Shown here piece by piece: positions 15,470 through 35,325 of a stretch of DNA of 36,383 nt (position 1 is the stretch's first letter; each line of letters opens with the position of its first letter). A program made the position numbers and the translations under genes. This DNA comes from Ettlia oleoabundans (Eukaryota; Chlorophyta; Chlorophyceae; Chlamydomonadales): NCBI GenBank assembly GCA_019693395.1, contig JAAMXP010002606.1, positions 1 through 36,383 of the forward strand. The letters run 5' to 3'. The notes beneath the pieces are model-generated. The model was not told where the DNA came from. It saw only the letters and a list, made by a program, of their open reading frames with translations, and made no database searches.

Positions 15470-17804
15470 CTACAGCCGCTTCACGCCAGCAAGCTTGTCT
15501 CCTTCCTCCCTTTCTTCCTGCCCTTCTCCCTGCTCCAGTGGATATCCAAACTCTTGGTAGAAGGGCGCCCAGCGCTGCTGCACCCGCTTACGCAGCTCAG
15601 TGCTCAGCGGCCTGCAGCAATGGTGGTGCTTGCACTGCTCCTGATAAAGCAGCGACAACCTGCTTGTGCAGTATGCTGCTGGTGTACGTGCCCTATTAAT
15701 CAGCAGTTGGTGGCAGCAAACAAGTGGCGGCTCTCTGGCTGCTGCAAAGGTCATGCAGCCAACCACACTGGCTTACACCTGTGTGTATTCTTCTTGAAAC
15801 CGCTCAGCTCCAGGCCGCTGCAGTACCGCTCAAAGGCTGGGCGTACCGCCTCAAAATCCCCCAGGTTGAGGGTGTTGTACATGCGACGCAGCGTGCCCAG
15901 CGGGTTTCGGTCCAGCTCATCAAAAGATACCTGCACAAGCTGGCCTGCTGGGAGGTGGTGGTGATGGTGGTGGTGAAATCGTGTGTTGGTGGGCGGGTAG
16001 GCGGAGTGTAAAATGGTGCACAAGAGGGGAGGGTTGTCAACCGTGCTAGACAAGTCCAACAGGACCCAACGTGCTGATGATGGTTGCTCCCACCAAGAAT
16101 AACCACGAGGGTTTGTATCCCTGAGTGGTTCCAGTGCTGCCATCGGCACTCATACCATGAAACACCTCACCAGCAGTCCCTGTGCCCTCTTTCTAAATTC
16201 ACCTGGCGGTACAAGCTTGCGGTCTGCAGTATATGTGCGGTACAACAGGTCGAACTGGTCCAGGATGAAATCAGTGACGTGGGCGCTGGAGGGTCGCTGC
16301 AAGTAGCAGTACCAGTAATAAGTGTCCGCCATGTGTGCCGCCGACTGAAAGGTGGTGAGTGGGTCACGGTGCATGTAGATGAATCGAGCCTTCGGGAAGA
16401 GCTTGAGGAACAGCCCCAGGCGCGCCGTGTGCACAGGTGATTTGATGAGTAGCGGCTTGCAGCCGCCCCATCGATATGTCACCTGCAGGGCGAGCCAGCA
16501 TATGGGGGTGAGTCCAAGCAGGGAGCGGCAGGGAGGTTCTAGTCCTATTTGCAGTCATGGAAACCTTGGCAAGGTTTTGACAGTGACCCAGGCTGGTCCA
16601 TAGCAGGACGTCAGCCTGGGCGCTGCCTAGCCACCGCAAGGCACGCACCTTTTTAAGGAACCACAGTAGGCTGGTCTGCCAGCTGTCAAACTCTGCCCTG
16701 CTGGAGCCCTCCTCAAAAGTGTAGTAGGCGTCGAAGCGATGCCGATCACGCATAAACACCAGCGGCAGGTAGGCGCTCACTGTGCCTGAAGGGATGGACG
16801 GGTTGAAGCAACCAGCAGCATGCGTTCGCTGCCATTTGCGCATGTGTGTGTCAGCTGACGCTGATATTGTGGCAAAAATCCTGACAACAAGGCACCGTGC
16901 ATTTCTGAGCCTTGACTAGAAGCGCGACGTGATGCACCCCCTCAAAGCCTCATTTCTCACACTTGGCCAGTTCCCCTGATCACACAGCCCACAGCCTTTG
17001 CTCCCACTAATACCGCACCCACCAGTCCTCGCCTCTGCACCAACCCTACCCGCCGCACCCGTCAGGGCGCTAACAGCAATCTCGTCTTCGGCAGGTGTGT
17101 CAAAGCTGAGAGGCATGGCGTCCATTGGGCGCGTGTCGTCTATCAGCGGGGCCAGCAGCCACTTGAAGCGCTCCAGCCACAGAAAGGCGGCAGGGAAGCC
17201 GGCATGCAAGGTGCGAGCGTAGGCAAACCTGTGGCACACACAGGAGGGACAGGCGGGAGAGCGGCAGGACAATCAGGCAGGCAGGCAGGCAGGCAGGCTT
17301 GTGGATGCTTGTGGGCTAGGGAGAGTCAGACCGGCGCCTGTGCCCTGTGATTTTTGCACCCGCTCCAATGCTGCACTGTATCATGGTCAGTTGCCCCCAC
17401 GCTGCGGTAGTGGCAAGCAGTGGAGTAGGCAAGCCTGCTCCCACCACTCACTGGGGGTCCAGCGCCAGCAGGTTGTGGATGTGGGTGGTGCCCGTCCGTG
17501 GGTGGCCAAGGATAACTATCGGCTGCGGGTGCAGCGGCTGCGCTGCGAAGGCTCGGCCATATAGCAGAGAGTCAACAACGCCCAGCAGGGAATTAATGCA
17601 AGCCATCAGCGTGAGGAAAGCGGCGCGGTGACCATAGTGCAACCAGTCAATAATGTCCCAGTGGCGGCGCAGCAGGCGCAGCCATGCGGGCAGCGTGATG
17701 CCGCTGAGGAAATGGTTCTTGAAGGAAAAGCGGTGTGGCAGGCCTGGCGTGAGCAGGTAGGTGGCTGTCCTGCTGTCACTGTCGCTTGCAAGACCCCAGT
17801 TCAT
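15470..17804 (-). CDS. PAPS-dependent sulfotransferase (Sulfotransferase_3-like)
   Basis: Six exons in coding order: 17804-17452, 17228 to about 17059 (or 17050), 16785-16649, 16482-16203, 15944-15779 and 15611-15470. The product is about 415 residues. The PAPS 5'-phosphosulfate loop is PIVILGHPRTGTTHIHNLLA, residues ~100-118. The 3'-phosphate-binding motif is ARFIYMHRDPLTTFQSAAH, preceded by CKPLLIKSPVHTARLGL. The C-terminal helices (VSFDELDRNPLGTLRRMYNT and RPLSTELRKRVQQRW ... YQEFGYP) are typical of the family. Such enzymes move sulfate from PAPS to small molecules, lipids or glycans; the acceptor is unknown. A hydrophobic stretch at residues ~65-85 (AAFLTLMACINSLLGVV) may anchor it to a membrane. 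The ATG at 17804 is the first Met in frame; an in-frame TAG precedes the upstream extension unless another exon exists. It is divergent from the dioxygenase-kynureninase gene. Confidence 0.88.
17274..17298. repeat. (GCAG)n tetranucleotide microsatellite
   Basis: About six GCAG units lie in the first intron of the sulfotransferase gene. The unit resembles the reverse complement of the CCTG repeat in the ABCB gene intron. Confidence 0.9.
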
Positions 17805-18419
17805 GGCCGGGGGGTGCTGGTCACTGGCGTTAGCGGGAGGTTTGCAGCGGGCGTGGCGGCGGAGTCGGGGTTGCCCAGGGATGGTGTAAGCGTCAATCAA
17901 CTAACATATTGTTGGCAGCAGTTGTCAATCAACACTTGCGAAGGCTTTACGTCACTATGGGAGAAGTGCAGGAACTGAGGGCCTACTGGAGACGTCTTTG
18001 TGCTGGCGAGCCCGCTGATCAATATGATGCAGTGAGGAAGCTAACACTGAGTCATATGCAAGGACAATTTCGCTTGCTGGGTGCCCAGCTGGCAGTGACT
18101 AGGCCGCCTAGCTTCGCTCGCTTGAATTTTGCCAGAGTATGCTGGTTTATGCGCTGTCTACAGAAATTTATCGTTCGTGAGAAGCACCTCCCAGACCACC
18201 TAAGCGCTGTTGGGCCTGTTTTGGTGAGCTGCGCGCGCGCAGCCCGTTCACCTGCCCGTCTGAGGACCACTGGACAGGGAAATTATACTCTTGTTCTGGT
18301 AATTGGTTCTTGGCCCTTGGATCCTTCCGCAAAGTTCCACGCTGGACTGGTTCACCAGAACTCTCGGCGAGCAGACATCCACTCACCACACTTCTTCCGA
18401 CATCCCTTTCCGCCACAAA
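17805..18419. promoter_or_regulatory. Divergent promoter region, sulfotransferase / dioxygenase-kynureninase
   Basis: This is 615 bases between outward starts at 17804 and 18420. Open frames cross it on both strands but have no recognisable protein character. No nameable motif was seen. It is AT-richer in the middle (18120-18310) than the neighbouring exons. Confidence 0.45.
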
Positions 18420-21400
18420 ATGACTGGGGGATGTCCTTTCGGGGCTGGAAGGAGCAACGGGGAGGATGCAGCGACGAGCCCAAGGCCGCTTTCTGCGGTG
18501 GGTTGTTGGCGCCTTGTCGTTGGGGCGCTCGGCAGTGCTGCCCGCCTACCTCTCCCTCTCCCTCAGTCGCTGGCTACCCGAACCCACCCACGCAAAAGCC
18601 GCAAGTAGGAAGATAAGCTGCACACCCTGTCGGTATGAAACTTGTAGTAATGACTGCCGTTATGGCTTGCAGACCAACCGACCAGACAGTGGCTCTGTCG
18701 TTGGCGCTCTGGCTGCCGGCAGGAAGCAGATGCTTCGCCTGCCCTCAGGGCGTGCACGTGTTAGGCTTCTGTACGAGGAATATGTGCATCTGCCCATGCT
18801 ACGTCAGGTGGGATGACCACACAGTCAAACGACAGCTCTGCACAGCCCGTCAGGTCATGCCAACATCAGTGCTCACCAGTGCAATCAGGCAGCCCGGCAG
18901 ACTCCTCTGGCAGCCAGCTTTCCGGTCCTCCTCCCTGCATCTGGTATGCAATAGCGCACTGGTACATCCATGCTTGCAGGTGTGGGAGTCTCCCTCAACT
19001 GAGAAGCCAGTGTTGGAGCCGCTGTTCGCCGCCGGCTTCCACGGCATCGAGCTGGCGCTGCTGCTGCTGGCGGAGTTTGTCAGCGATGGCCGCAGGTGCG
19101 GGACAGTTGGTTGATTTGATAGCACCAGCAGTTCAGCGCCGCACCATTGCTTGAAGTGCACTACCCCAGTTGCATTCGTGCGCTTCAAGGACAAGTCAAC
19201 AAGCGCTGCCCACCCGCCTGCCACCCACCAGGTATGTGGCCAAGCGGCCCCGTGTGGAGGCTGTAGCAGAAGACATTGCAACTCAGGTGATGCTGTGGCT
19301 GGTACCCAGCGAATTAGACAGACTGGAGTATACTTGACTTCTGTCGCACCTGGTGAGCCATTTTGCAGCTGCCCGGCTGCTGCCACATGCTACCTGGCCA
19401 TCCTCAACACTTGACATCCTCACACCTTTCCTAACACCCGAACTTACACGTGGCACTCCGCGTTGCCGCTGTTCACTGCCTGCCCGTTGCTAGACGTAAT
19501 GTGCTGCTGATACATCAAGCGCCAGCTGTTGACAGTGTGTATGCGTGTGTGCCCATTGTTGCCGCTGTATGCAGTGCGAGCTGCTGACTGAGGTGGTTGA
19601 TGCTGAGCTGGAGGAAGAGCTGCAGGATGGGGAGGGGCCCAAACATGCAAACACAACCAGCCGACTCTCACTCACACAGGTAATCGCCGCCGGGGCAGCA
19701 GCCCCTTCGTTCAGCGTGTGCTTCTGCTGTCACTGCGGCCAGTGGAGCCGGCTTGGTTGTAGTGGCGTATACCCTTGTGTTGCAACGCAAGCCCCCAAGC
19801 TGCTATGCTCGTTGCCTTGCTGACATTGCGATTTTGTTGTGCCCTACTGTTCTTGAACGGCACTGTCTTCAACTTGTCACTGCTGGATGCAGCCTTTCCC
19901 TTTCGAGGGATGCCCACCCACCAAGACCGGCCCCTGCCACTCCCCCGGCCTTCAACGCCTCACCGACGCCATCCTGGCCAAAATTGGCGGCATGAGCTGC
20001 GCAGAACGCAACTCCCTTATCAAGGTGCATGAAGCAACGCTGCTGGTATCACAACTGGCTTCCTACCTGCAGGGCCAGCTGCAGCCAGGGTTGAGAGGCC
20101 TTGCTAAGGTGCCACCTAGCCGCATGTGCCAGGTTTCCCACCTTTGTGCCCACCTCCTTTGCCTCCTTCTTGCCCTGCCCGCAGCTGGTGATCAACATCA
20201 CCGCCGCCTTCTCCAGCTTCCAGCGCTGGAGCGTGGGGCTGGGCATCGAGCCTCAGCTCAACGCGCTGCGAACTGCCGTGGGCCTTCCGCCGCTGCGGGT
20301 GAGGTGCAGCTACAAGCAAAGGGAGGCATACAAGGTGCCAGACAGAACCATTGCCCTCACATGGCTCTGCAAGCGACTTGAAGCGGGATGTTACCACATG
20401 GTTACCACATAGTCACCACATGGCTGCCCTGACCCCCCCAGTTCCCTGCCGCCTTCCTGCCTTGCAGTTTACCCACAAGCTCAACCTGGACTATGTGAGC
20501 TGGCTTGCTGCCCTGCACCCAGCTATCGTCCCCGGGTGCATGTTGTTCAAGCAGCTGCCATCGCTTTCCTCTCCACTGCACTGAACAGAACAGCTTCATT
20601 GTGTGCCTTCCGGTGTTGTTGCAGGACAGTCTGGTGAAGCCCTGGCTTTGCGAGCAGACGTTGACCTGCGAGACGTACACACATGGTGGGTGAATGGCTG
20701 AATGGGTGGGTGCATGTGAGGGTGGGCCGGTTGGGAACTTGTGTAGGCTTGAGCGCCACACAGGCTCCAGATCCTCAGTGCAACACCTCAGCACATGCTT
20801 CCTTCTATGACATGATGTTCTGTCTAATCCCGTCGGTGTGGCCTCAATTGGTGCTGTTGCTCCGCCCCTTCCTTGACCCTTCCCTTTCTAGCCCCTGCCG
20901 CTCCATGCAGCCGAAGACTTTTTCTTCAGGACGATCCACCTGGGTACCGACTGCTGGGCTTTTGTGGCGCTGTCACGCATGCACAGCGCCCGTCAGTATG
21001 CGGACGCAGGCAACTGGCACATCGCTGCTGCACGCGCCGCACAGGTGCGGGACGTTATGACACCCCCTGGATAAAACACGTCCTAGCATGCTGGCTCTTA
21101 AAACCGACATTGAGGCATATTTCCTAGCCTTTGCATCGTGGCTCGGCTGCAGCTGCTAGTGCTGACACGTGACTCCTCTGCTCCCCTGCCCCTGTTGCCC
21201 TCAACTGTCTGCCGTGGCTTCAGGCTGCACGCATCCTTCACTACCTGGGCTCCCACGTCATGCTGCTCACCTCCATGAACCTGCGGGACTACCTGCTGCT
21301 CAAGGTGGAGCTGGAGGGGACCAGCGGCGAGGGATCGGTGCAGGTGAGGGGCGTTGAGGGTGTTTGCTGGTGAGGAAGATACTAGACTGGATTGCAGTTC

Positions 21401-24400
21401 ATGATACTGCCGTGCTGAGAGTTGTAGCACGGTTGCACTCGCAATGTTGGCTGCCATGCGATCTGCAACAGAGTATTATCTGGATTTGGTACTTGTTTGC
21501 AGGTCAAGAGCTTCCGCCCCACAGTGCGCGAACTGTTTGAGCCATTGGTGGCGGCAGTGCTGGGGCTTGATGACACCGCAGCAGCACATGTCGCCATTGC
21601 GGCTTCCTCAATTAGTAAGCAGCAAGGAGAGGAGGGAGAGGAGCAGCAACAGCAGGAGGAAGAGGAGGAGGAGGAGGTGCAGGAGCTGAAGCAGGCGTTG
21701 ATGGGCATCTATGAGTTCCCAGACAGGCAGCCAGGCAAGTCCTGCCCTGCCCTTTCTTGCGTTGGCCGGCGCTGCTTCGCATCTGACCTGTCCCGATCCC
21801 CTGCTGTCTCGCTGCGCAAGCGACTGGGGTTTGCTGCTGCCTGCTGCGGATTCCATGGTATCTCTTGGCAAGACAAGCTTCACGGGTGAACAGCGTTACC
21901 ACAGCAGCACAATTGCCTGCAGGCTTGCTGCTGTGCCAACCTATTGCGGTACGCTGATCGCAGGGCTGTACAACTATTGCAAGGCGCTGGAGGCCCTGGA
22001 GACTGGCCTGCTGGGTGGCTTCTACTACCGCCACTACTGCCTGGCTACCAACGTGATTGGGAGCGAGGCGCGCGGCACCATGAAGCGAGCCGTGGCGGCG
22101 CTCAAGGCGGGATACGAAGTGCCCATCTTCCCAATACTGGATCGCTGCCGGTGGGCTGGACAGTGTATGCCATTGTGGCAAGGCATGTTCAAAGGGCGAT
22201 GGACATACCCCGAGCGATTTGGTGGATGTGAGACGTACATTCACCGTAGCAATCACAGCATCCCTCAGTCAACCTGGTCCCACACCCGCATGCCTGCCCG
22301 TCCTGCCCAAGCACAGGGTTGCGCTGGGGGTGCGAATTGATGCCGAGGTGGCCCACAATAAGGGGCGCATCATGGACCAGATCATCAGTAACTACCAGCA
22401 GAAGCAGGCCATCAAACAAACCCATGGTGGAATGGGCAGCACGCGACGCAGCAGCGATGGGTGCCCATTTGGGCATACCACCAGCCCCATACCTGCTGCA
22501 TCAACCCAATCTGAAGCTCTCTTGGAGCCGAGGCCTGCACCACCAGCTGCTGGTTCTCCCCTGACCCCATCAACTGACACGTTTGAGGCTGCACGCCGGC
22601 AGCTGTACAGCTGGGACCAGGTGCCGCCCGCCTTCCGCCACATGGTGGCTAAGGAGCTGGCACAGCAGGTGGCACAGCTGGGCCTGCGGCCTCGCCCTTC
22701 ATCCGGTAGTGCTGACAGTGGCGGTGGTGGCAGCAACCCCAGCGCTGCCAAGCCTCTTTCATTCCTGGACCACGCCTGGGGCCAGCTGGCGCCACTAGCT
22801 CAGGTGAGCTGCTTGTAGGGCCAGTTTTCCTTCCGGTCACCAAGCCAGTGGTGTTTTTCACCGCATTTCGCCCGCTCTATCATGCACATAGTCTGCCACT
22901 GTGCTGTCACAGTCGTGGTATTGTACTTAGCTTAGCTGTCATCATGCCGCTCTGCGCCCATTGCAGTACCGTGCGTGGCGCGAGGCAGCGGCGCTGTATG
23001 AGCTGGGCAACCCCACCTGGGACGCAATGTTTGGACGGGTCATGCCGCAGGCAAGTGTGTTCGTTTTCAATAAAACCTTCGGAGGGAAATGACGACAATC
23101 AGCAACATTTCCTTGGAGTCCTTGCAGCTCCTCATGGAGTTAGCTGACGGAGGACTACTTCATTTCTGCCCCGCACATCCTGCCTCCAGGCTGCGGCGCA
23201 CATCCGCACGCTATTGGGCCTCCCCGCCGATGGCACAGTCTGCAGCGTGCAGTTTGGCAGCAACAGCCACGAGCTTGTGTGCCGCCTTCTGTCGGTCTTC
23301 CTGGACCGCAGCAGCAGCAAGGACAGCAGCAGGTGTGTAGGGCCAGATGCTCCACCCATGCGGCTGTTGACCAGCGATACAGAGTTTTATAGCGTCACCC
23401 GCCAGCTAAACCGTTTCGCAGGTGCGCCTGTTGGTTGGTAACTCCCCAGTAAGGGCTGAAGTAGTGCTGCTGCCATATTTGTTTAATTAAAGGGCCTGAT
23501 ACTCCACAGTTTTGCACCGCTCAAATTGCTTGAACAGTGTTCCCTGCACCATTCAGGGTGCTTGAACAGTGTTCCCTGACGTGTTGCTGCTTTTGGTTCA
23601 CAAGCACTCCTCTTAAAGGCTTGAGTTTGTCTTTGCAGGTGCGGGCCTAGCGACGGTGGATGTCGTGCCAGCTGAGCCAGCAGCAACCTTCCCCGACCGC
23701 TGCTGTGCTGCAGTAGAGGCGGCAGCTGCTGCAGGCCAGCAATACAATGTTGTGTACGTGTCACAGATCACTTACCTGACACAGCAGTGCCTGGTGCCCA
23801 ACATTCCAGCACTGGTGCGCGGCCTGCGTGCTGCAGCCGGAGCGGCAGTGGCTGACAGCGGGACGGGGCAGCAGGTTTCCGAGCCGCTGATTGTCATTGA
23901 TGGTTACCATGGCTTCTGCGCGGTGCCCACCGACTTGAGCGAGGTTGCTGGCGACTGCTGCTATGTGGCAGGCATGCTCAAGCATGCAGGCAAGCTTATT
24001 ATCGCGGCTGCCCGCCACAGTAGTGCGTGATTACCTGGCATATGCTATGCACTTGTGAGCTGCGACCACCAGTGCAACCTGTACGCCAGTTGGGTGGTTT
24101 GTGTTAACAATGTCAGTCGCACATGATGTGGTGCTTGTGTGTGCAGGCTGCGGTGCCAACTGTGCCTTCATCACTCTGCCCACTCGGCTGGATGTCAAGC
24201 CGGTGCTGACGGGCTGGCTGGCAGATCCCTCCGTTCTGGCGCCAGGCAGCAGCGGCATCCAGTTTGGGTCAGAGGTAGGCACTGCTGGTCATTGGCCCCC
24301 TATTGTTGCCTGGTTTGGGAGTATCCGCGCACAAACTTGCTGCCGGGTCTCCCCCACAAAATTTCCAGGCTGGGTTGCAGCCTAGCTTTCCTTGGTTGTC

Positions 24401-25180
24401 GAGACAAATATGGAAGCTTATTGACTATGCCACTGTTTGAGGTGCAGGTTGGTTTCTGTGCTGAGCTGGCACTGCAGGGCGGCACTCCATCCTACCTGCT
24501 GCCACTCCTCACTTTCAACCACCTTATGAAAGTATGCTGCTGCGCCTGCCTAGTACTGCTGTCCCTCTCCTACCGTTGTGTGTTTTGTTAAGCCAGGATC
24601 CGTTGCTTATGTTGTCCACGTGTAACAGCTTACACAAGCTTGCTTGCCCCCGCTCCTTGCTTGCTCGCCTGTCAACTAGCTGCAGCTGTGGCAAGAGGTA
24701 CAATGCGGACCCATCACCGTGGCGGGCCTGCACAGCCACGTGATGCAGTTGCACAGCAGATTCCTTGAGCGCCTGGATGCGGCTGGGCATCCGGCTATCA
24801 GCACCCGCAACCTGCTATCCTGCTATCCACAGGTGCCTGTCCTTAGCTGCTCATCGCAACTTGTAGACAGCACAAGCTGTGATAGAGGCTGAGCTTTGTG
24901 ACGGGAAATACAACATGGTAACATTGTTCTGCCTGTCCTGCTCCTTACTTCACCCCTATTTGCTGTGCAGGACCCTGCTTGTCGCTCCCACACCCTAGTG
25001 TTTGCCCAGCCCGATGCTTTGGCCGCCAAGACGGTGGTGGACGCGCTGGCGGAACAGGGGATGCAGGTGGACTGCCGCAAGTCATATGTGCGCATTGGGT
25101 TTGGGGCCAACCACAGCCTTGCTGACGTGGATGTCTTGCTTGCAGCGCTTGGTGCGTTAGCTGCGGCTGCCAGCAGCTGA
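18420..25180 (+). CDS. Fusion: tryptophan-2,3-dioxygenase-like haem domain + kynureninase-like PLP domain
   Basis: 21 exons: 18420-18497, 18673-18807, 18980-19095, 19232-19286, 19575-19679, 19893-20108, 20185-20298, 20468-20494, 20625-20685, 20911-21044, 21224-21343, 21503-21734, 21964-22150, 22317-22803, 22967-23050, 23190-23421, 23639-23989, 24147-24274, 24448-24531, 24680-24832 and 24971-25180. All phases join, giving ~1102 residues. Residues ~300-530 follow the TDO superfamily: FFFRTIHLGTDCWAF (His312 at the TDO distal-His position), a MNLRDYLLLK segment, SGEGSVQVKSFR, and GGFYYRHYCLATNVIGS (His488 at the haem-ligand position). The TDO GTGGSSG motif is missing. Residues ~690-1102 are an aminotransferase-V/kynureninase-like fold: PLIVIDGYHGFCAVPTDL (Asp882, His885) and YVAGMLKHAGCGANCAF (Lys909, candidate Schiff-base lysine). 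Residues 1-300 are mostly helical and unassigned. Three introns use GC donors. The start, MTGGCPFG, is inferred. Reaction and substrate are unproven. Confidence 0.8.
20390..20422 (+). repeat. Short tandem repeat, ~11-bp unit (GTTACCACATG)
   Basis: Three imperfect copies of an 11-base unit lie head to tail in the seventh intron of the dioxygenase-kynureninase gene. Confidence 0.7.
23527..23578 (+). repeat. Direct repeat, 20-bp copies 32 bp apart
   Basis: TGCTTGAACAGTGTTCCCTG occurs exactly twice, at 23527-23546 and 23559-23578, inside the intron between exons 16 and 17 of the dioxygenase-kynureninase gene. Confidence 0.9.
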
Positions 25181-26200
25181 CCTTGCTGCTAGATAGGGAG
25201 GCCGGCTGCCATGTGTGTTTTGCTACAGTGTGCATAGGCAGGTCGCTTTGTCCACCAGAAAAGACGTGTACATAAGCTGCGTTTGTTGTAGAGTACTAAG
25301 CAACGTGTAGATAAAATCCCCCATCCCACCCTTCCTCTTACCATTGCAATTCATGTCTCCTTTGATCACAAGCTGTCAATTCCTTTGCGCATCCATGAAT
25401 AACAAATGCTTGGACCTGATCTTCTAACGTGATCAGACAATATGTCTTACCCATGTTTGGCATTCAACATGCCACTGAATAGCGTGCGACGACCTTGGCT
25501 GACCGTCCAACTGCACCGATTGTTTGTATATGGCATCAGACCAATGCACTTCTGTGCCGCTAATGTTTGCATGTCTGCGTGTCTTCACGTCGCTATGTAT
25601 AGTTTTTTGCTGTAAGTGGTGGATAACATTGGGTGGAAAGAGCTCAAGATGGAAGGCAAACAGGCCCTAGGACAGCAGGCAGGGATGCAAGGCGGAGGTG
25701 GGGCAGCAACCAGCCGGTCCCGTCATTGAAGACATAGGCATCCAAGGTACACCGGGCACCTTCATTTAGCAGGTTGACCAAAAGACAGGCCTGACAAACA
25801 GCCAGCTTCGCAGAAGGCTGGCGGAAGAGAACAGGGAAGTGTGGTGGTTATGCCGCTGAAGCCAGTCTTGGCAGGGCACTTCCTCTAAAGCACGATCCAC
25901 GGCTGCGAGAAAGGTTTCGAGCTTGATTTCATATTTTGCGAGAGCGGTGCATTGCGCCCCAGGATGACAGTACACCCGCCCCAGTGTGTTTCCGGCGGTT
26001 AAGCGCTGCAATCATCCTGCCTGATAGGAAGTTATACAGAAAGGTGCCCAAAGCGCCTGGGCACTGCGAGGGTGCGGCCGCTCCGGCAGGGGAGCAGACA
26101 CCCTCTTGTTGTGCTTTTGGCCACTTTAGATCAGCCTTAGAGACCAATTCATCGCAATTGTTGACAACCTGGCTCTATCGTCACTCGTGGGCCGGTCAAA
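25181..26200. other. Tandem intergenic region: 3' UTR of fusion gene and promoter of ABCB gene
   Basis: This is 1,020 bases between the stop codon of the fusion gene and the ATG of the transporter. The first part is AT-richer and carries TGTAA at 25611-25615. The rest should hold the transporter promoter and 5' leader. Open frames at 25766-26147 (minus) and 25936-26316 (plus) have no recognisable protein character and I do not call them genes. Confidence 0.5.
25611..25615 (+). promoter_or_regulatory. TGTAA polyadenylation signal, dioxygenase-kynureninase gene
   Basis: This is the first TGTAA seen after the stop codon of the fusion gene, 430 bases downstream, after a T-rich run. Confidence 0.6.
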
Positions 26201-29200
26201 ATGGCATCGCCACCGACACCCGCGCCTCTCTCCTACGGGAGCCTTTTCCGCTACGCCACTCCAAAGGAGCGTGGGATCATCGCGCTGGGCTGCCTGGCGT
26301 CCGCCGTGACAGGTAAGCGCCCCATCTCAGACACCATGACCAGCTAGCGGTGCGCTGCCGCCTGTGCTTCCCCGCCAGTTCCCTCTTGTGAAAATAGCCG
26401 AACCAAGCGTTGTAAAATAATATAGGTAGGCCTGCGCCACCTGCCCATGCCCCTGCAGGAGCGGCGACCCCAGTGTTTGCACTCATGTTTGGCCACCTGC
26501 TGAATTCCTTTTTTGCAACCGACCTTCAGAGTGAAATTAGAAAGTTCTCCTTTATCATTTTGGGGGTCGCAGGCGCTGCCTTTTTGTCAGGTGACTCCTA
26601 CGGTATTTTAGTTTGGTATGCATAGCGCAACCCTGCATAACAAATGTCCTGCTGGACCACAAATAGCGACAGATGCTGATGTGGCTGCCCGTCGGCAAAG
26701 GCACGCCTTATTGGTTGGCAGGATATTTTTGAATTTTAGGCTCCTATTGTAGGTGTAAGTAACTGGAGATGGCCTGATTGCTGCTGCTGCTCGATTTCAC
26801 CTTCGCAGGCACACTGCAATTTGCGTGTCTGATGTGGGCTGGTGCGCAGCAGGCGAACCGCGTTCGCCACCTATACCTCTCCTCCCTGCTGTCCCAGGTG
26901 CACCCAATTGCCTGCTGGCTGCCGTCCACTTCCCGCCATACGTTTGCTCTATAGACGCTTCGATGTTTTCATTTTTGCTGACCACCTTCCGTGCATTTCT
27001 CCTTGAGTAGCGGTGGCCTTATTTGATTGCGCCTGCTCATTCTCCGCCCTTCCCACCCAGCCCAATTTCAACCCCTCAGGGGCCCACTCCTTCTACACAC
27101 CCCTTTTCTGGGTGCAGGACATGGCCTTCTTTGACACCGCCATCTCCAACTCCGACCTGCTGCATGGGCTGCGGGAGGAGACGCTGACGTATCAGGAGGC
27201 GGTGTCGGACAAGCTGGGCAGCTTCCTGCAGGGAGTGGCGTGCTTCGTGGGAGCCATGGTGGGTGGGCCCGCTGTTACGGCCTGCTACGTCTCATGTCTG
27301 TAGAACTGGTTACAATTTGGCCGACCAACAAGCACACACTGATTGATGGTGCTCATGCCGCAGACGTCAGCTTACAAGCCGTGTGCTACTGTGCCTTGCG
27401 TTGCTTCTTGCAGGTTGTATCTTTCATACGGAGCTGGGACCTGAGCCTGGTAAGACCCACGCCAGGAACAGTTTTACTGCTTGCAGGCAGTTGGCCATCA
27501 TGCTTATTGGCATCAGCTGCCAGCAATATTCCAGTGCAGCGACGCTGTTGCCTTGACCGCTGTGGCTGTTGCCCTGTGTGCGTTTGTAGGTGGTCCTGGC
27601 TGCCATTCCAGCCCTGGTCATTGTGGGCGCCATCTGCGGCATCTTCACAGCCAAGCTGCAGGTCAGAGTGCCATGCGCCCAAACCGAGCGACCTGCTTTT
27701 TGTGCCGTCACTATCCAGCTTATACGTACACCTGTGGCACTTCTTGCTTTGTTCGTGTGAGCCACATCATTGAGCCCTCTCCCTGTCCCCCAATCCTTGC
27801 AGGTCAAGGCTAGCAGATCTTATAGCCGTGCAGGAGGCATTGCGGGTGAGGCTGTTGCCAACTACCGCACCCTTGCTGCCTACAGCCAGGAGGAGGCCAC
27901 AGTGAAGACCTACGCCTCGGCACTGGCAGCACCCACCAAGGTAGGGGGTCTTTGAAAGCAGTCTATAGACCCTGGTGTAGTTGGCTCAAACAGGCTGAAC
28001 CAGCTAAGGGCAGGTGATCAAACCCTTACTGGTCTAATCTGCCATCGAAACTGCCCGACAATCCCATGATGTGCAGCTGGGTGAGTGGCAGGGCGTGCTG
28101 GCGGGCTTCACCCTTGGCGCCACCCACCTCACCTTCTTTGCAGCATATGCGCTGGCAGTCTGGTACGGAAGCCGGCAGGTTGCCGATCGCAAGATCGATG
28201 GCGGCGAGGTGTGTCCCTAGCTGCTGTCTATGGCTGGGGAATTGCCCTTTACTCTGGTAACCCTCCTTGCAGGTTTGAGTGCAGTTTGAAATCGACAAAT
28301 GGCCGATATGTAGGTGTGGACCATCATCCTGTCCTGCGTGCTGGGAGGCTTCGCGCTGGGCGGGGTGAGGCCAACGTAGCACTTGGCACCGCCTGGTGCA
28401 GCAAGGCATGCAGACTGGGTGTCATATGACCAGCACCTCCTTGCAGCATTGTCATCTTGCAGCATGTGCCACTGTTAGTTACAGTGAGGCAGCTAACACC
28501 AAGCCCTCACAACTGGGTTGGGTTGCCATGGGCCCACGCTGCTCTAAGTTCTCCTTGTCTTGCAGGCAATGCCTCACTTGGCTGTGTTCCAGCAGGGCTG
28601 CGTGGCAGCTGCCAACCTGTTTGCCGTCATCGAGCGCAAATCTGCTCAGGGTCCCAATGAGCGCATCGCCAACACCCCCGCCATCAGCCGTAGGGGCAAT
28701 GTCGTGGTGCCCAAGAACAGCATTGCTTACACGGCAGAGGACGGCCAGCTGGTGCCGGCTGATGTCAGCTGTCGGGGCGACTTGGAGCTGGCCAGCGTCA
28801 CCTTTGCCTACCCTGCACGGCCGGAGCGTCCCGTGCTCCAGGACCTTAACCTCGTCTTCCCTGCAGGTAGCAAGCCCGCAGGATGTCACCCAGCTCACTG
28901 TTTGTGGGTGGGAGCGGGCGCCCCATGGTTGCCTGAGCGTTCACAGCACCATACCTTCTATTCACCGGGTCGAACAGGTTTCTTCGTATGAAAGGGCACA
29001 TGCCCTACCAGAAAACGTGCCAGCTCCAGTTTGGTGTCCCTCTGTGCACCTACCTCTGCAGGCAAGACGAGCGCCCTTGTGGGCGAGAGCGGCAGCGGCA
29101 AGTCCACCATCATCCAGCTGCTGCTGCGCCTCTACGACCCCTCTGCCGGCGCTTTGCTGCTTGATGGGCGTAATGTGCGCACCCTGTCCCTCAAATGGCT

Positions 29201-32200
29201 GCGTGCACAGGTCCGCAGTGCTACTTGCCCATGGCATACACTACACCAGCACTTTCCGCAAGTCTAGACCTGCTGAGCCCAACACGTGCTCATGCATCTG
29301 CCCAGCACCCCAAGCAAAGTCCCCACTGCCCTCGCCTCCCTGCCTCCCTGCCCAGGCTGCCTGCCTCCCAGCAAGTTTTTCTTGTGAATTCTAGCCTTTA
29401 GCCTCTTGTTCGTCCGCGCTGCCTCCCTGCAGTATGGTCTTGTGAGCCAGAACCCCACCCTCTTCGCCTCCTCCATCTTTGACAACATTGCGCTGGACAG
29501 CGGAGCCAGCATGGAGCAGGTGATGGCGGCATCCATGGCGGCAAACGCACACGGGTTCATCTCCAAGCTGCCCAACGGGTAGGGGCGCACATGCATGCAA
29601 CTGCGACAGATTGATGCTGCGGCCATCTCGATGCAAGTAATGAGCTGGACCCCGACTTGCACTGCATGCACAGTTGTTTCTGAGACTGCTACTGAAACAG
29701 CAATCAAACTTGTTCATCATGCTTGGGGTTTGGATAAACCCGTGCGTGCGCTTGCAATGACACAGGTATGACACTGTTGTTGGCGAGAAGGGAAGCAACC
29801 TGAGTGGCGGCCAGAAGCAGCGTATCGCTATTGCCCGTGCTATCCTGAGGAACCCGCAGGTGAGGCACCAGAGGGGTCGTCGTCAAGAACAGGTGTATCC
29901 TGATTCATCCGCCATTAGCGGCAGCCTTCACCTGGAAAACATCATGTGGGAGCTTGTCTGAGGCCGTACCAACACGGCAACAAGGTTGCCAGTTTCCTTG
30001 GGTCCCAACCTTGACACCCCACCTGTACTGTGTTGCATTCTTTGTGCCGCCAGGTGCTGCTTCTGGATGAGGCCACCTCCGCCCTGGACAGCAGCTGCGA
30101 GAAGGCGGTGCAGGCGGCCCTGGAGGCGCTCATCCCGGGGCGCACATGTATCACCGTCACCCACCGGCTGTCCACCGTGGCCGCTGCTGACGCCATCCAC
30201 GTGATGAAAAACGGGGTGGTGGTGGAGTCTGGCACCCACAGGGAGTTGCTGGAGCTGGGGGGCTATTATGCCACACTGGCGTCCAAGCAGGCTATGAGGC
30301 TGGAGGAGGAGGCAGAGGAGGGCAATGGCGACGGCGATGTGACGGTGAAGGTGGCTGCAGGTGGCGGCAGGAAGGGCGGTGTGCGTCAGTTGAGGGACTC
30401 CATCATGCGCCGAGGCTCGGTGCGCCTCTCAGTCATCCCTCAGGCAAGAAACTGGAGGTGGAAAACATAAAGCAGCGGTGCAGCCCAGATGGTTTTTGGC
30501 TGCCAGCAGCTGAGTGTGCCGTGCCCTTGCTTCCCGCACCTGCCAAGAAAACCTGCAGTGTTGCTTGCATCCTGCTTGCCTGCAATAGGCCACGCCTGCC
30601 TACATGCCTAGGTGCCAGCCTGCTGCGCCTTCTGCACAACGTGTGCCCTGCAGGCGCTTAAGGAGAAGCTGTCTGCCAACAAGGAGAAGCAGGACAACGA
30701 GCCGCCTCCAGTCACCTTCAAGCGCCTGGCCGTCATGAACATGCCGGAATGGCACTATTGGGTTGTTGGCCTCATCTGCGCCTCGGCTGCCGGCCTGCAG
30801 GTATGATGCTTTGCTTTACGCCTCGCAGCCTATGCAGATAGACGGTGCAAGCAGACTCTGCAAAATGTTGCCTGCCTGACTCGCTGCTTGTGTCCGTCAA
30901 CTGCTGCCCTGTTGTGCTGCCGCAGATGCCTGGCTTCTCCCTGGCGCTGTCCGAGGTGCTGGCTGGGCTGTACCTGCCGGACCCCGCTGATGTCAGGCAA
31001 GCACAGCAGATACCCAGCCCCCACAACATTGCGCCTTGGCCCCCTTGTCTCACTTTGTCCCTGTTGTTGGTGCCAGGAGCGTGGCCTCATTATACATTCC
31101 ATGTATCATACAAACGGATCACCCACACGGTTTTGTGGAGCGCTGCCAGCACTCACAACGCTTACTAGCATGAAATCGGTTTACTAGCCGCCTGATGCAG
31201 GTCTGAGGGCTCCAAGTGGGCGCTGGTGTTTCTGGGAGTGGGTGTGGGTGCGCTGGTGGCAGAGACCATCGCGGTGGGTGTCAGCTGGGGGACATGAGGC
31301 AGTTGTGCCTGCTGCAAACGCTGCCCATCGATTGGCTGGGTGTTGATGGATTTCTTGGCGCGGTAACTATGACGCATTGAGCAGAGACGACGCCTACTTG
31401 CAAACGTTACGTTGTTTGCTGCCAACCTTGCCAGCCTTCAGCCTACCTGTATGCATGCCCCTGTGTCCTGCAGGGCTGGTGCTTTGGAGTGATGGGCCAG
31501 CGTCTCGCCACCCGCCTGCGCGTGCTGATGCTTAAATCCCTGATGCGCCAGGACGCCGCTTTCTTTGACCGCCCTGAGAACGCCAGCAGCATGCTGATGA
31601 GCACGCTGGCGGGTGATGCAACCAGCGTGCGTGGAGCGGTGGGAGATCGCCTGGGTGTGCTGCTCACAGTCATGTCCTGCATCATCGCCTCCTACGCCAT
31701 CGCTTTCTACAGCAGGTAAGAGCGGTCACGCCACTCCACGCCAACGCTTGTTTATGTGGGTGTGTTAGTACGAGTTTCTTTAGCTGTGTTGTGATTCTGT
31801 TGGAACAGAATTGGAAGCCTCGGAAGCGAAGCATGCCGTTGTATGGTCACAAGCAGTATTGCGTAACTCAAAGGACAAAAAGACCAAATGAATTGTGTTC
31901 CCCTTTTTTTACGGATTTGGTTTTAGTGTTGACAAGGAAACTTCCATCACCCAAAGCGTTCCAATTGTTTTGGAAGTTTTTTTTCTTTTTTTTGTTTTGA
32001 TGCTCTGGTGCCCGCTGGCCTTCCTTGTCCTGAAATAGTCGCTTTCTATGCAATCTACCACAGTGTTCGTGCTCTTTCGCCTTGACCTCCCCTGACTGTG
32101 CCTGTGACCACACGCGCCTGCCCGTGCAGTTGGGCGGTCACCCTGGTGATTACCGCCACCCTGCCACTGCTGGTCATCTCCAACGGCGTGCTCGCCAAGC

Positions 32201-34939
32201 TGGCTTTTGGCGCCCAGAAGACCGACAGGGAGGCGTTGACCCATGCAAACGCAATGGCCTCTGAGGCCCTGGGTGCAATCAAGACGGTGGCAGCCTTCAA
32301 TATGCAGCCCAGCTACGTACGGCTGTACCGCCAAGAACTGGAGCGTACTGCCCCAGCATGGGCAGCTCTTATGGCCGGCCTCGGGTTTGGCTGCAGGTCG
32401 GCGGTTTTATTGCTGGATCCTCATCAGCTAACCAGCAGCTCGTGAATTGGCGTGAATCCCTGCTTACTCACCTTCCATGCTGGCGTGCCTGGCTGCTGCC
32501 GCCTGCTTGTGTGCCTGCAGCCCGCCTTCCCGCCATCCCCTCTTTCAAACCACAGCCGCCCGACCAAGCCAGCAAGCTCCATGCGAGCTGACAAGCCACT
32601 TACCTGCCCTTGTCACCTGTCTGCCCTCCTTTCCTGCAGCCAGTTTTTCCTGCTGGGTGTGACTAGCTTAGGCTTCTGGTTTGGCGGCACACAAGTTGAG
32701 AGCGGCAAGCTGGGGTTCAAGGAGATGCTCACTGCCAACATGGCCGTCTTCTACGCCGCATTCGGACTGGCAATGGTGAGGCTGCACACACTGCTTGAGG
32801 TGCCAGGGAGCTGCATGAGGTGGTACACGTGGGGGTCTGGGCTTGGGCATGAGTTGGGCAACTTGGATGGTGAACTGCGTGAGAGGCAGGTGCACCCACT
32901 TCAATGTTCAAGCTGCTTCAAACCTCATGTCTTTCTTCCGGCTAGAACCGCCAGTCCACCCACCCACCCATCCACCCACCCGACCCAACTCACCACTCCT
33001 TCACCGCCTGTTTCGCCTGGCAGGCCCAGACTTCCTTCCCCGAACTTGCCAAGGCGGCGGAAGCGGTGAAGCGCACCTTCCGCATCCTGGACCACCGCCC
33101 CGCTGTGGACCCATCTGCCGCTGCGGGCGCTGTGGTGGATTTGGACGGAGCTGTGGAGCTGAGGAGGGTGGCATTCGCCTACCCCACCCGCCCGGATCGC
33201 CTCATCCTGAAAGAGTTCAGCCTGACCATCCCGGCGGGCACCTCATGCGCCCTGGTGGGTCGCTGGGCCCCCCTGGGGATGCCTGCAGCTTTGCAATAAG
33301 GGCAGGGCTACAGGAAGAAAGTAAATGCCCATTGTTTGTTCCCAGGACTGCCAACGCTGCTGGCCCCTGCAACACTTAAACCACGTGGGCCCGTGGAACC
33401 TTTGGATCAGCCTATATCGCCCTTGCCCTGACAATATCTAACTTCCCTGGTTGGTGCAGGTGGGCGAGAGCGGCCACGGCAAGTCCACCATCATCTCACT
33501 GCTTGAGCGGTTCTACGACCCCGTTGATGGACAGGTGTGCTGAGTCTGTGCATGCGGGGGGGTGTCTGTGTGCCAGGCTGGGGGATGGGGGTGGGGTGTG
33601 GAGTGGGGCTGCATAGCTGCTGGCAGTTGGGTCGGACTGAGGTGCACTGTGGTGTCCAGTGGTGCTTGAATTGGCGCATGCCCACAACATTGCCAGCAGC
33701 AAGGGTGAGGGTGCCTGCTGCACTTCCCCCTGGCTCACAGGTGCTCATTGACGGCATGAACATTGCCGCCCTCAACATCAGCTGCCTGCGCCGCCAACTG
33801 GCCCTGGTTGGCCAGGAGCCCGTCGTGTTCAGGTGCGCCTGTGAGACGTCCATGGCATCAGCTCCAGCAGGCTCAGCCTCGTGTCTACATAAACCCCGTG
33901 GCAGCACCTGCTTGTTGCAGGGCATTGCAGGGCTGTGCCTGACCTCTGTGTTTGGTTTGCATGCTTGCGCTCTTCCCACATCTTCACCTGGGGCCTGTTC
34001 TTTCATGTCTGCAGCGCCAGCATCCTGGACAACATCAGCATGGGCAGCGGTGCCAGCATGCAGCAGATGCAGGCGGCGGCCAGGGCTGCACACATCCTGG
34101 ACTTCATTGAGCAACTGCCAGAGGGGTTTGCCACGCGCCTGGGAGACGGCGGCAGCCAGCTCAGCGGCGGGCAGCTGCAGCGCCTGGCGGTGGCTCGTGC
34201 CATGCTGCGGGCGCCACGGGTGAGATAATGTGATGACAGCTGGCGCAGCACATGGTGCAGATGCTTGGCTAGAAACACCTGCTGTTGTGCCGCCTGAACC
34301 ACGCACCTGTGTGTTTCATGTTGGGCACGCCTGTCTCAGGAAGGAGCGCGCTGCTGTGACCTTTGTTGGTGCACCCATGCACTTCTCCACCCCCCTGCCT
34401 GCCTGCCTGCCTGTCTGGCCTGCCTGCCTGCCTGCAGATCCTGCTCCTGGACGAGCCCACCTCCTCCCTGGACAGCGAGTCGGAGCGGCTGGTGCAGGCA
34501 GCCCTGGACGCAATGATGGTGAGACTCACGATGTGCCGTGCTGTGCTGTGCTACACAGTGCTGCGCTGCTGAGGAGCCACACTTGGGGTGCAGTGGTGGC
34601 TGCCACATTGCCATGCCCACCACCACCACAGCTGCTGCCAGCGCAATGGAGCGGGCATGTGTGGCGGGCATCATGTCACTCCAGGCTGGCAGAGTTGTCA
34701 GCTGGAAGAACACCACTCCCTCACGACACGGTCCGGCCAACACCGCCTCTCCCCCCTTGATGTGCCGCCTGTAGGTGGGACGTACCACCATTGTCGTGGC
34801 TCACCGCCTGTCCACTGTTGTGGGCTGCACCCGCATCGCCGCCATCTACCGCGGGCGTGTGCTGGAGCAGGGCTCACACGCTGAGCTGCTGGACAAGAAC
34901 GGCTATTACAAGCACCTGTGGGAGTCAGCACAGGCGTAA
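26201..34939 (+). CDS. Full-length ABCB/MDR (P-glycoprotein-type) ABC transporter
   Basis: 26 exons: 26201-26312, 26459-26590, 26809-26897, 27118-27258, 27414-27449, 27590-27661, 27803-27940, 28077-28208, 28314-28364, 28566-28866, 29062-29210, 29433-29578, 29766-29859, 30054-30443, 30654-30800, 30926-30996, 31201-31273, 31474-31715, 32130-32396, 32640-32775, 33024-33254, 33460-33534, 33741-33832, 34015-34219, 34438-34518 and 34775-34939. Phases all fit; 1255 residues, usual for ABCB. Order is TMD1-NBD1-TMD2-NBD2. NBD1: Walker [10 protein letters not shown] (~409-417), Q-loop LVSQNP, signature LSGGQKQR, Walker [14 protein letters not shown]-loop VTHRLS. NBD2: Walker [42 protein letters not shown]. 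Both ATP sites look intact, so it should be an active exporter of lipids or small organics at a membrane; the substrate is unknown. The NBD1-TMD2 linker is acidic then basic. The starting ATG precedes [20 protein letters not shown]. Two introns use GC donors. Confidence 0.95.
31716..32129. other. Long T-rich intron in the ABCB gene
   Basis: This 414-base intron contains T-runs (about 31905-31925 and 31975-32000) and is far less GC-rich than its surroundings. Read on the minus strand it has A-rich tracts. It may contain a decayed inserted element, but I see no terminal repeats or target duplication. Confidence 0.35.
32955..32982. repeat. (CCAC)n-like microsatellite in ABCB intron
   Basis: About seven CCAC/CCAT units occur just before the acceptor of the exon starting at 33024. 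Confidence 0.8.
34395..34436. repeat. (CCTG)n microsatellite abutting a splice acceptor
   Basis: CCTG/GCCT units with one interruption run up to and include the acceptor cctgcag of the exon starting at 34438. The repeat therefore supplies the polypyrimidine tract. Confidence 0.9.
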
Positions 34940-35325
34940 AGCTAAGCTGAGGCTGAGGTTGCAGCTAAGGCTAAGGCCGCGGCTGGAGAAAATTGCCGAG
35001 GAATACTGCGGCGCTCCGGCGCAATCAGCGGCTATGCTATACAACAGGGGGCTAGAGCTGCCGGAGTGGAACTGCGTAGGGAAAACAGCAAGAGCTGCTC
35101 GGCAGCTATAAGAAGGTACAACGTATATACAGGCTTCCTGGTGGCGCCGCTGGAACTATTTGAACTCCGAACAACAACAACAACAAACAACTTCCAACAT
35201 ACAACTACAATACATCCTTGCGGCATGTGCCGAGCATTGTTGTGCTAGCATACAACGTTGACGCAAAAAAGTGTAACTCACGCGCACCGTCCATCCAAGG
35301 GATCTGCGCTGTTGCCTACTGGACC
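34940..35325. other. Convergent 3' region, ABCB / terminal coiled-coil gene
   Basis: This is 386 bases between facing stop codons, with AAC-rich simple sequence near 35170-35195 and TGTAA at 35272-35276 on the plus strand. Confidence 0.45.
35272..35276 (+). promoter_or_regulatory. TGTAA polyadenylation signal, ABCB gene
   Basis: TGTAA lies 333 bases after the transporter stop codon, following an A6 run. Confidence 0.55.

Follow-up and report, generated by a model that had tools for sequence, protein, structure and literature searches.

A single gene of the green alga Ettlia oleoabundans joins an HSPRO-type domain, with a predicted tryptophan dioxygenase fold, to a kynureninase-like domain

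In this study we describe a gene of Ettlia oleoabundans whose predicted protein combines two halves: an algal member of the HSPRO/Hs1pro-1 family known from plants, for which the fold of the tryptophan 2,3-dioxygenases (TDO/IDO fold) is predicted, and a pyridoxal phosphate (PLP) enzyme resembling kynureninase. It lies on the forward strand at 18420-25180 of the analysed stretch of contig JAAMXP010002606.1 (assembly GCA_019693395.1; 36,383 nucleotides, hereafter the window). The fusion is conserved in other algae, and in many bacteria a gene related to its second half is found beside a TDO gene.

One gene carries both halves

The predicted gene model comprises 21 exons which join in phase to 3219 nucleotides encoding 1072 residues without an internal stop, from an ATG at 18420 to a TGA ending at 25180 (Table 1). 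All 20 introns (130-288 nucleotides) end in AG, and 17 of them begin with GT and three with GC (donors at 21734, 23050 and 23989). With the help of relatives an initial 1129-residue model was adjusted at its first exon and at two exon ends; its first exon at 18466 was rejected, as the relatives favour the start at 18420. The resulting N-terminus (MTGGCPFG...ATSPRPL) is similar to those of the relatives P0002 and P0003. Family scans and the homologue search were run with the initial model or its halves, and later searches with the halves of the 1072-residue protein.

Exon 14 (22317-22803) is of special importance for the joint. Without any stop it contains the conserved C-terminal stretch of the first half (VALGVRIDAEVAHNKGRIMDQI), a low-complexity linker and the conserved N-terminal stretch of the second half (LSFLDHAWGQLAPLAQ) in a single open frame. 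The joint is therefore independent of predicted splicing, and the exon provides evidence at the DNA level for one polypeptide. Two separate genes were considered and are ruled out by exon 14 and by the fused relatives described below, and the sequence confirms the fusion as a real single gene. A preliminary description of this DNA had proposed one gene with both halves and 21 exons in phase without a stop; both proposals stand in the 1072-residue model, which agrees with it over exons 13-15 (21964-23050). In a search of the alga's own genome with the final protein all 19 exon matches fell at this locus and no second copy was found.

A CPF motif occurs twice in the window protein, at the N-terminus (18420-18450) and in the linker (about 22420-22480), and at least once in 22 of the 30 relatives. 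Motifs of the CP type are able to bind haem.

The fusion is conserved in algae and a thraustochytrid

In a search of about 5.8 billion proteins, scoring was restricted to the 7994 candidates with most words in common, and the number of relatives found, at least 30, is therefore a lower bound. On the basis of how far each half is aligned, both are present in 28 of the 30; P0029 lacks most of the second half and the fragment P0030 most of the first. This goes far beyond chance, and the fusion is, by sequence, a conserved one. Relatives with a named host come from Chlorella variabilis, Micractinium, Nannochloris and the thraustochytrid Hondaea fermentalgiana. The closest of the matches listed, that of Chlorella variabilis, has 72% identity to the 1129-residue query over 98% of its length, and a relative from Micractinium tetrahymenae shares 61% identity. 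For the 3561-base contig of P0002, which encodes 1038 residues, a spliced mRNA is the simplest explanation.

Several trebouxiophytes, lichen algae among them, have predicted proteins that consist of the first half alone (within P0031-P0046, which include proteins of Trebouxia and Myrmecia). When bacterial TDO is used to root a tree of first halves, the stand-alone proteins of Trebouxia and Myrmecia are nested within the fused ones, and their lineages have therefore probably lost the PLP half. The root is unsure due to the long outgroup branch, and several losses together with one or more gains of the PLP half are possible. In the tree of second halves the fused sequences occupy one side of a branch (100/100), separate from the bacterial ones. 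In both trees two pairs were entered as fused, P0042 with P0078 and P0043 with P0080, each of which appears to be one fusion that gene calling had split, judging from the equal longest-contig values within each pair (10196 and 41112, respectively). Besides, no land plant was present among the organism-named entries of 45 first-half matches, and none of the nine stretches of viral contigs that fit a pattern encodes a relative.

A few relatives already bear database names, namely hypothetical protein, 'nematode resistance protein-like', 'tryptophan 2,3-dioxygenase' and 'kynureninase'. The sequences are thus not new, but their reading as a TDO-like/kynureninase-like fusion seems to be. Among the literature matches listed (titles and beginnings of abstracts, with subscription journals mostly outside the search) no paper described this fusion, in line with the earlier statement that the design is undescribed, and none treated HSPRO as a haem protein.

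The first half is an HSPRO-type protein with a predicted TDO/IDO fold

In the family scan the first half (about residues 52-521) passed the threshold for Hs1pro-1_N (PF07231; 1e-7, 32.3 bits against a cut-off of 25). The C-terminal family Hs1pro-1_C (PF07014) was found below its cut-off at the TDO-fold region of six of the eight relatives scanned (P0010, P0031, P0042, P0022, P0004, P0014). It was not listed for the other two (P0001, P0024) or for the window protein, and a precomputed database table gives it for some relatives. By its sequence the first half represents the plant HSPRO/Hs1pro-1 family in algae.

Since the PLP half filled the PDB list for the full-length model, the fold was examined in the stand-alone relative P0031, which stands for the first half of the window protein at 55% identity. 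Its predicted structure lies inside the TDO/IDO fold, as expected from the earlier assignment of this half to the TDO superfamily. PrnB was not among the matches listed in the structure comparisons of this model, which excludes nothing. Moreover, PF03301, a TDO family, was reached above its cut-off by the relative P0042 (42.0 against 34.9). In an alignment of 31 rows (the window protein and 30 relatives) the axial, proximal-type histidine H460 is present in every row and aligns with that of TDO. The haem-pocket positions, comprising both histidines, the tyrosine and the loop threonine, are conserved in the rows and in the alignment to TDO. The first half would bind haem via H460.

The second half resembles kynureninase

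For the second half (about residues 646-1072) Foldseek returned kynureninase (1qz9) as the best match to the model of the relative P0001, at 17-18% identity, which bears out the kynureninase-like character given in the preliminary description. The P0001 model and the alignment rows have a class V PLP fold with the Asp-x-x-His and Lys residues, and the kynureninase positions Asp, His, Lys, Arg and Trp are kept (D854, H857, K881, R1044, W907). In a PDB profile search with the algal second half kynureninase ranked first, although weakly (0.025), and a KYNU_C domain was detected below its cut-off. The second half would bind PLP.

Many bacterial relatives of the second half adjoin TDO genes

Stand-alone relatives of the second half share 26-35% identity with it; the four that are named are all from bacteria, and the remainder are presumed to be bacterial. 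A profile of 14 of them found kynureninase as the nearest PDB entry (1.8e-17, against 8.8e-6 for the next), and the tyrosine preceding the PLP lysine is kept in all 14. We examined the best 80 of at least 587 related stretches in bacterial genomes. A TDO gene was present in 72 of these loci, within 1 kb on the same strand in 30, within 1 kb on the opposite strand in 39 and farther away in three. Six of seven scanned TDO neighbours passed the TDO equivalog cut-off, and the seventh (L033) was just below it (378.3 against 390.7). No conserved third gene was apparent, as the largest clusters of neighbours covered at most 17 of the 80 loci and followed genera.

Canonical enzymes were searched in 27 genomes, taken from a selection of 28 of the 80 loci. 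A kynureninase above the cut-off was found in one genome only. The formamidase KynB exceeded its cut-off in none of the 27, and as none of 14 KynB controls did so either, this cut-off may be strict. Together with the TDO pairing these results suggest that the bacterial PLP genes beside TDO are candidates for an unrecognised kynureninase family.

Proposed function

Both the fusion and the bacterial gene pairing link an oxygenase with a PLP activity. The preferred reading, to which we would give about even chances, is a bifunctional enzyme that opens the ring of tryptophan with O2 and then performs a kynureninase-type cleavage. The haem half would open the ring of tryptophan, or of a close aromatic relative, to an N-formylkynurenine-type product, which the PLP half would take over on the same chain. 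This product or its deformylated form would then be cleaved to alanine and (formyl)anthranilate or an anthranilate-type acid; a formamidase may or may not act between the halves. From sequences and models we infer not only haem and PLP binding but also substrate, products, step order and channelling.

Several points weigh against a bifunctional enzyme of this kind. In the first half the arginine which in TDO contacts the substrate carboxylate is replaced by lysine (K346) in 30 of the 31 rows, the sole arginine being that of the fragment P0030, and the window protein scores 23.8 bits for the TDO equivalog TIGR03036, far from the cut-off of 390.7. In the second half the tyrosine preceding the PLP lysine, which has an active-site role in kynureninase, is leucine in 23 rows and isoleucine in seven, with one gap. 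The families listed for the window protein do not include the kynureninase equivalog TIGR01814, and the full-length model (m3083994bee39) has a pTM of 0.51. The predicted stand-alone proteins of Trebouxia and Myrmecia indicate that an oxygenase half can occur on its own. On the bacterial side eight of the 80 loci have no TDO gene in the stretch examined, although in three of them (L052, L062, L076) the relative of the second half lies within 250 bases of the end of the stretch. Moreover, the loci are not independent because many come from close relatives (Microvirga, Bosea, Roseomonas), and the partner is an ordinary TDO and not an HSPRO-type protein. Weak KynB-like matches occur in 17 of the 27 genomes. 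Searches of the alga's own genome for TDO, kynureninase, cyclase-type formamidase and 3-HAO gave no match. However, NadA, which a green alga should possess, was likewise missed, and no signal came from the 3-HAO controls; these absences therefore say nothing. The chemistry put forward in the preliminary description, in which an N-formylkynurenine-like intermediate is channelled to anthranilate-like products, is plausible at most in view of the Arg-to-Lys and Tyr-to-Leu/Ile replacements.

A different chemistry of the haem half has to be weighed first, that is, a MarE-like monooxygenation or a PrnB-like rearrangement of a modified tryptophan or tyrosine whose product the PLP half processes in a special route. 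With VIA-align the P0031 model matched MarE first, tied with TDO, which makes monooxygenation possible. We consider such a chemistry unlikely, since the bacterial relatives of the PLP half are mostly found next to ordinary TDO genes and since the R118K variant of MarE still binds its substrate, though more weakly (KD 23.7 against 4.57 uM), so that lysine does not exclude tryptophan as the substrate.

The PLP half could also be another class V enzyme, such as a C-S lyase, a desulfurase or a different beta-lyase. In NCBIfam, desulfurase and selenocysteine lyase models scored at least as high as the kynureninase model in all three bacterial PLP neighbours scanned, yet all matches were far below the cut-offs, and just one of these neighbours had the kynureninase model listed at all (27.5 bits against 246.4). 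As kynureninase came first in Foldseek and in both PDB profile searches, and as the KYNU_C domain and the TDO neighbours point the same way, this seems quite improbable to us.

In plants HSPRO is a stress and resistance protein, and we know of no enzymatic activity or biochemical function assigned to it. By analogy, and in keeping with the stand-alone HSPRO forms of algae, the haem half might be a sensor or scaffold controlling the PLP half or a kinase, with no oxygenase activity. The tested haem-pocket positions, among them the distal-type histidine and the loop threonine, are conserved, which speaks against such a role and renders it very doubtful. Finally, a wrong joining of two adjacent genes is hardly credible, for although the model rests on genomic DNA, exon 14 covers both domains in one frame and 28 of the 30 relatives are fused.

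Comparison with known systems

The window protein has PF07231 in common with HSPRO1/HSPRO2 and Hs1pro-1, and six of the relatives scanned match PF07014 below its cut-off; plant HSPRO is about half as long as the algal fusion and has no PLP half. TDO is similar in fold and in the haem-pocket histidines, tyrosine and threonine, but differs from the window protein by its arginine and by the lack of the N-terminal extension of about 200 residues that is typical of plant HSPRO. MarE and PrnB of the haem-dependent aromatic oxygenase superfamily have the same fold and other loop motifs, and we know of no fusion of either to a PLP domain. The second half agrees with kynureninase (1qz9) in fold and in the Asp, His, Lys, Arg and Trp positions, but the tyrosine is replaced in the fusions. 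In the bacterial pairs (Microvirga, Roseomonas, Bosea and others) TDO adjoins a relative of the second half, as in the algal fusion, but the genes are separate and an ordinary TDO takes the place of the HSPRO-type domain. In PMC7455551 a fused gene of the kynurenine pathway is described for another member of the green-plant lineage, Prasinoderma coloniale; this fusion starts with kynureninase, followed by 3-hydroxyanthranilate dioxygenase (HAAO).

Exon structure and neighbouring genes

Table 1 Exons of the fusion gene and the features they encode (positions in the window)
Exon	Position	Strand	Feature
1	18420..18497	+	start ATG; MTGGCPFG... leader with CPF motif, like the N-termini of P0002/P0003
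2	18673..18807	+	conserved HSPRO-type domain begins (GRARVRLLYEEYVHLP)
3	18980..19095	+	Hs1pro-1_N region
4	19232..19286	+	Hs1pro-1_N region
5	19575..19679	+	Hs1pro-1_N region
6	19893..20024	+	from gene model
7	20185..20298	+	3' end set by relatives
8	20468..20494	+	27 nucleotides; from gene model and relatives
9	20625..20685	+	from gene model
10	20911..21044	+	distal-type haem-pocket His H284 (H252 in P0001)
11	21224..21343	+	Y342; K346 (place of the TDO Arg); GTSGEGS loop
12	21503..21734	+	GC donor; acidic insert
13	21964..22150	+	proximal-type His H460; VIGSEARGTM
14	22317..22803	+	first half, ending near 22383; linker containing the second CPF; second half, starting near 22756
15	22967..23050	+	GC donor; PLP domain
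16	23190..23421	+	PLP domain (FGSNSHELV, DTEFYS)
17	23639..23989	+	GC donor; D854, H857, K881 (PLP lysine position)
18	24147..24274	+	TGW motif (W907)
19	24448..24531	+	PLP domain
20	24686..24832	+	PLP domain; acceptor set by relatives
21	24971..25180	+	KYNU_C-like end; R1044; stop TGA

On the reverse strand the fusion gene is flanked at 15751-17900 by sulfotransferase exons (Sulfotransfer_3; 2.8e-12 for the best piece). On the other side a long gene on the forward strand (about 26200-35100) contains membrane pieces of an ABC transporter, and ATP-binding motifs were seen by eye in its later open frames; by sequence it is probably a full-size ABC-B transporter.

Significance

According to PMC4217691 and PMC7455551, the Viridiplantae (green algae and land plants) have no kynurenine pathway, with the exception of Prasinoderma coloniale. 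A conserved fusion of TDO-like and kynureninase-like halves, present in chlorellacean algae and allied groups, would mean that part of this pathway has gone unnoticed. As a tentative extension, which we regard as rather doubtful, green algae and some other protists may possess a formamidase-free shunt from tryptophan to anthranilate on a single polypeptide, and plant HSPRO may be a descendant of this bifunctional enzyme which, as Trebouxia seems to have done, lost the PLP half but retained the binding of haem and of a tryptophan-like ligand. If this were true, the shunt would have been overlooked since it was filed under nematode resistance. The link to HSPRO also leads to a testable hypothesis for the plant proteins, namely that HSPRO may be a haem protein with a tryptophan dioxygenase fold.
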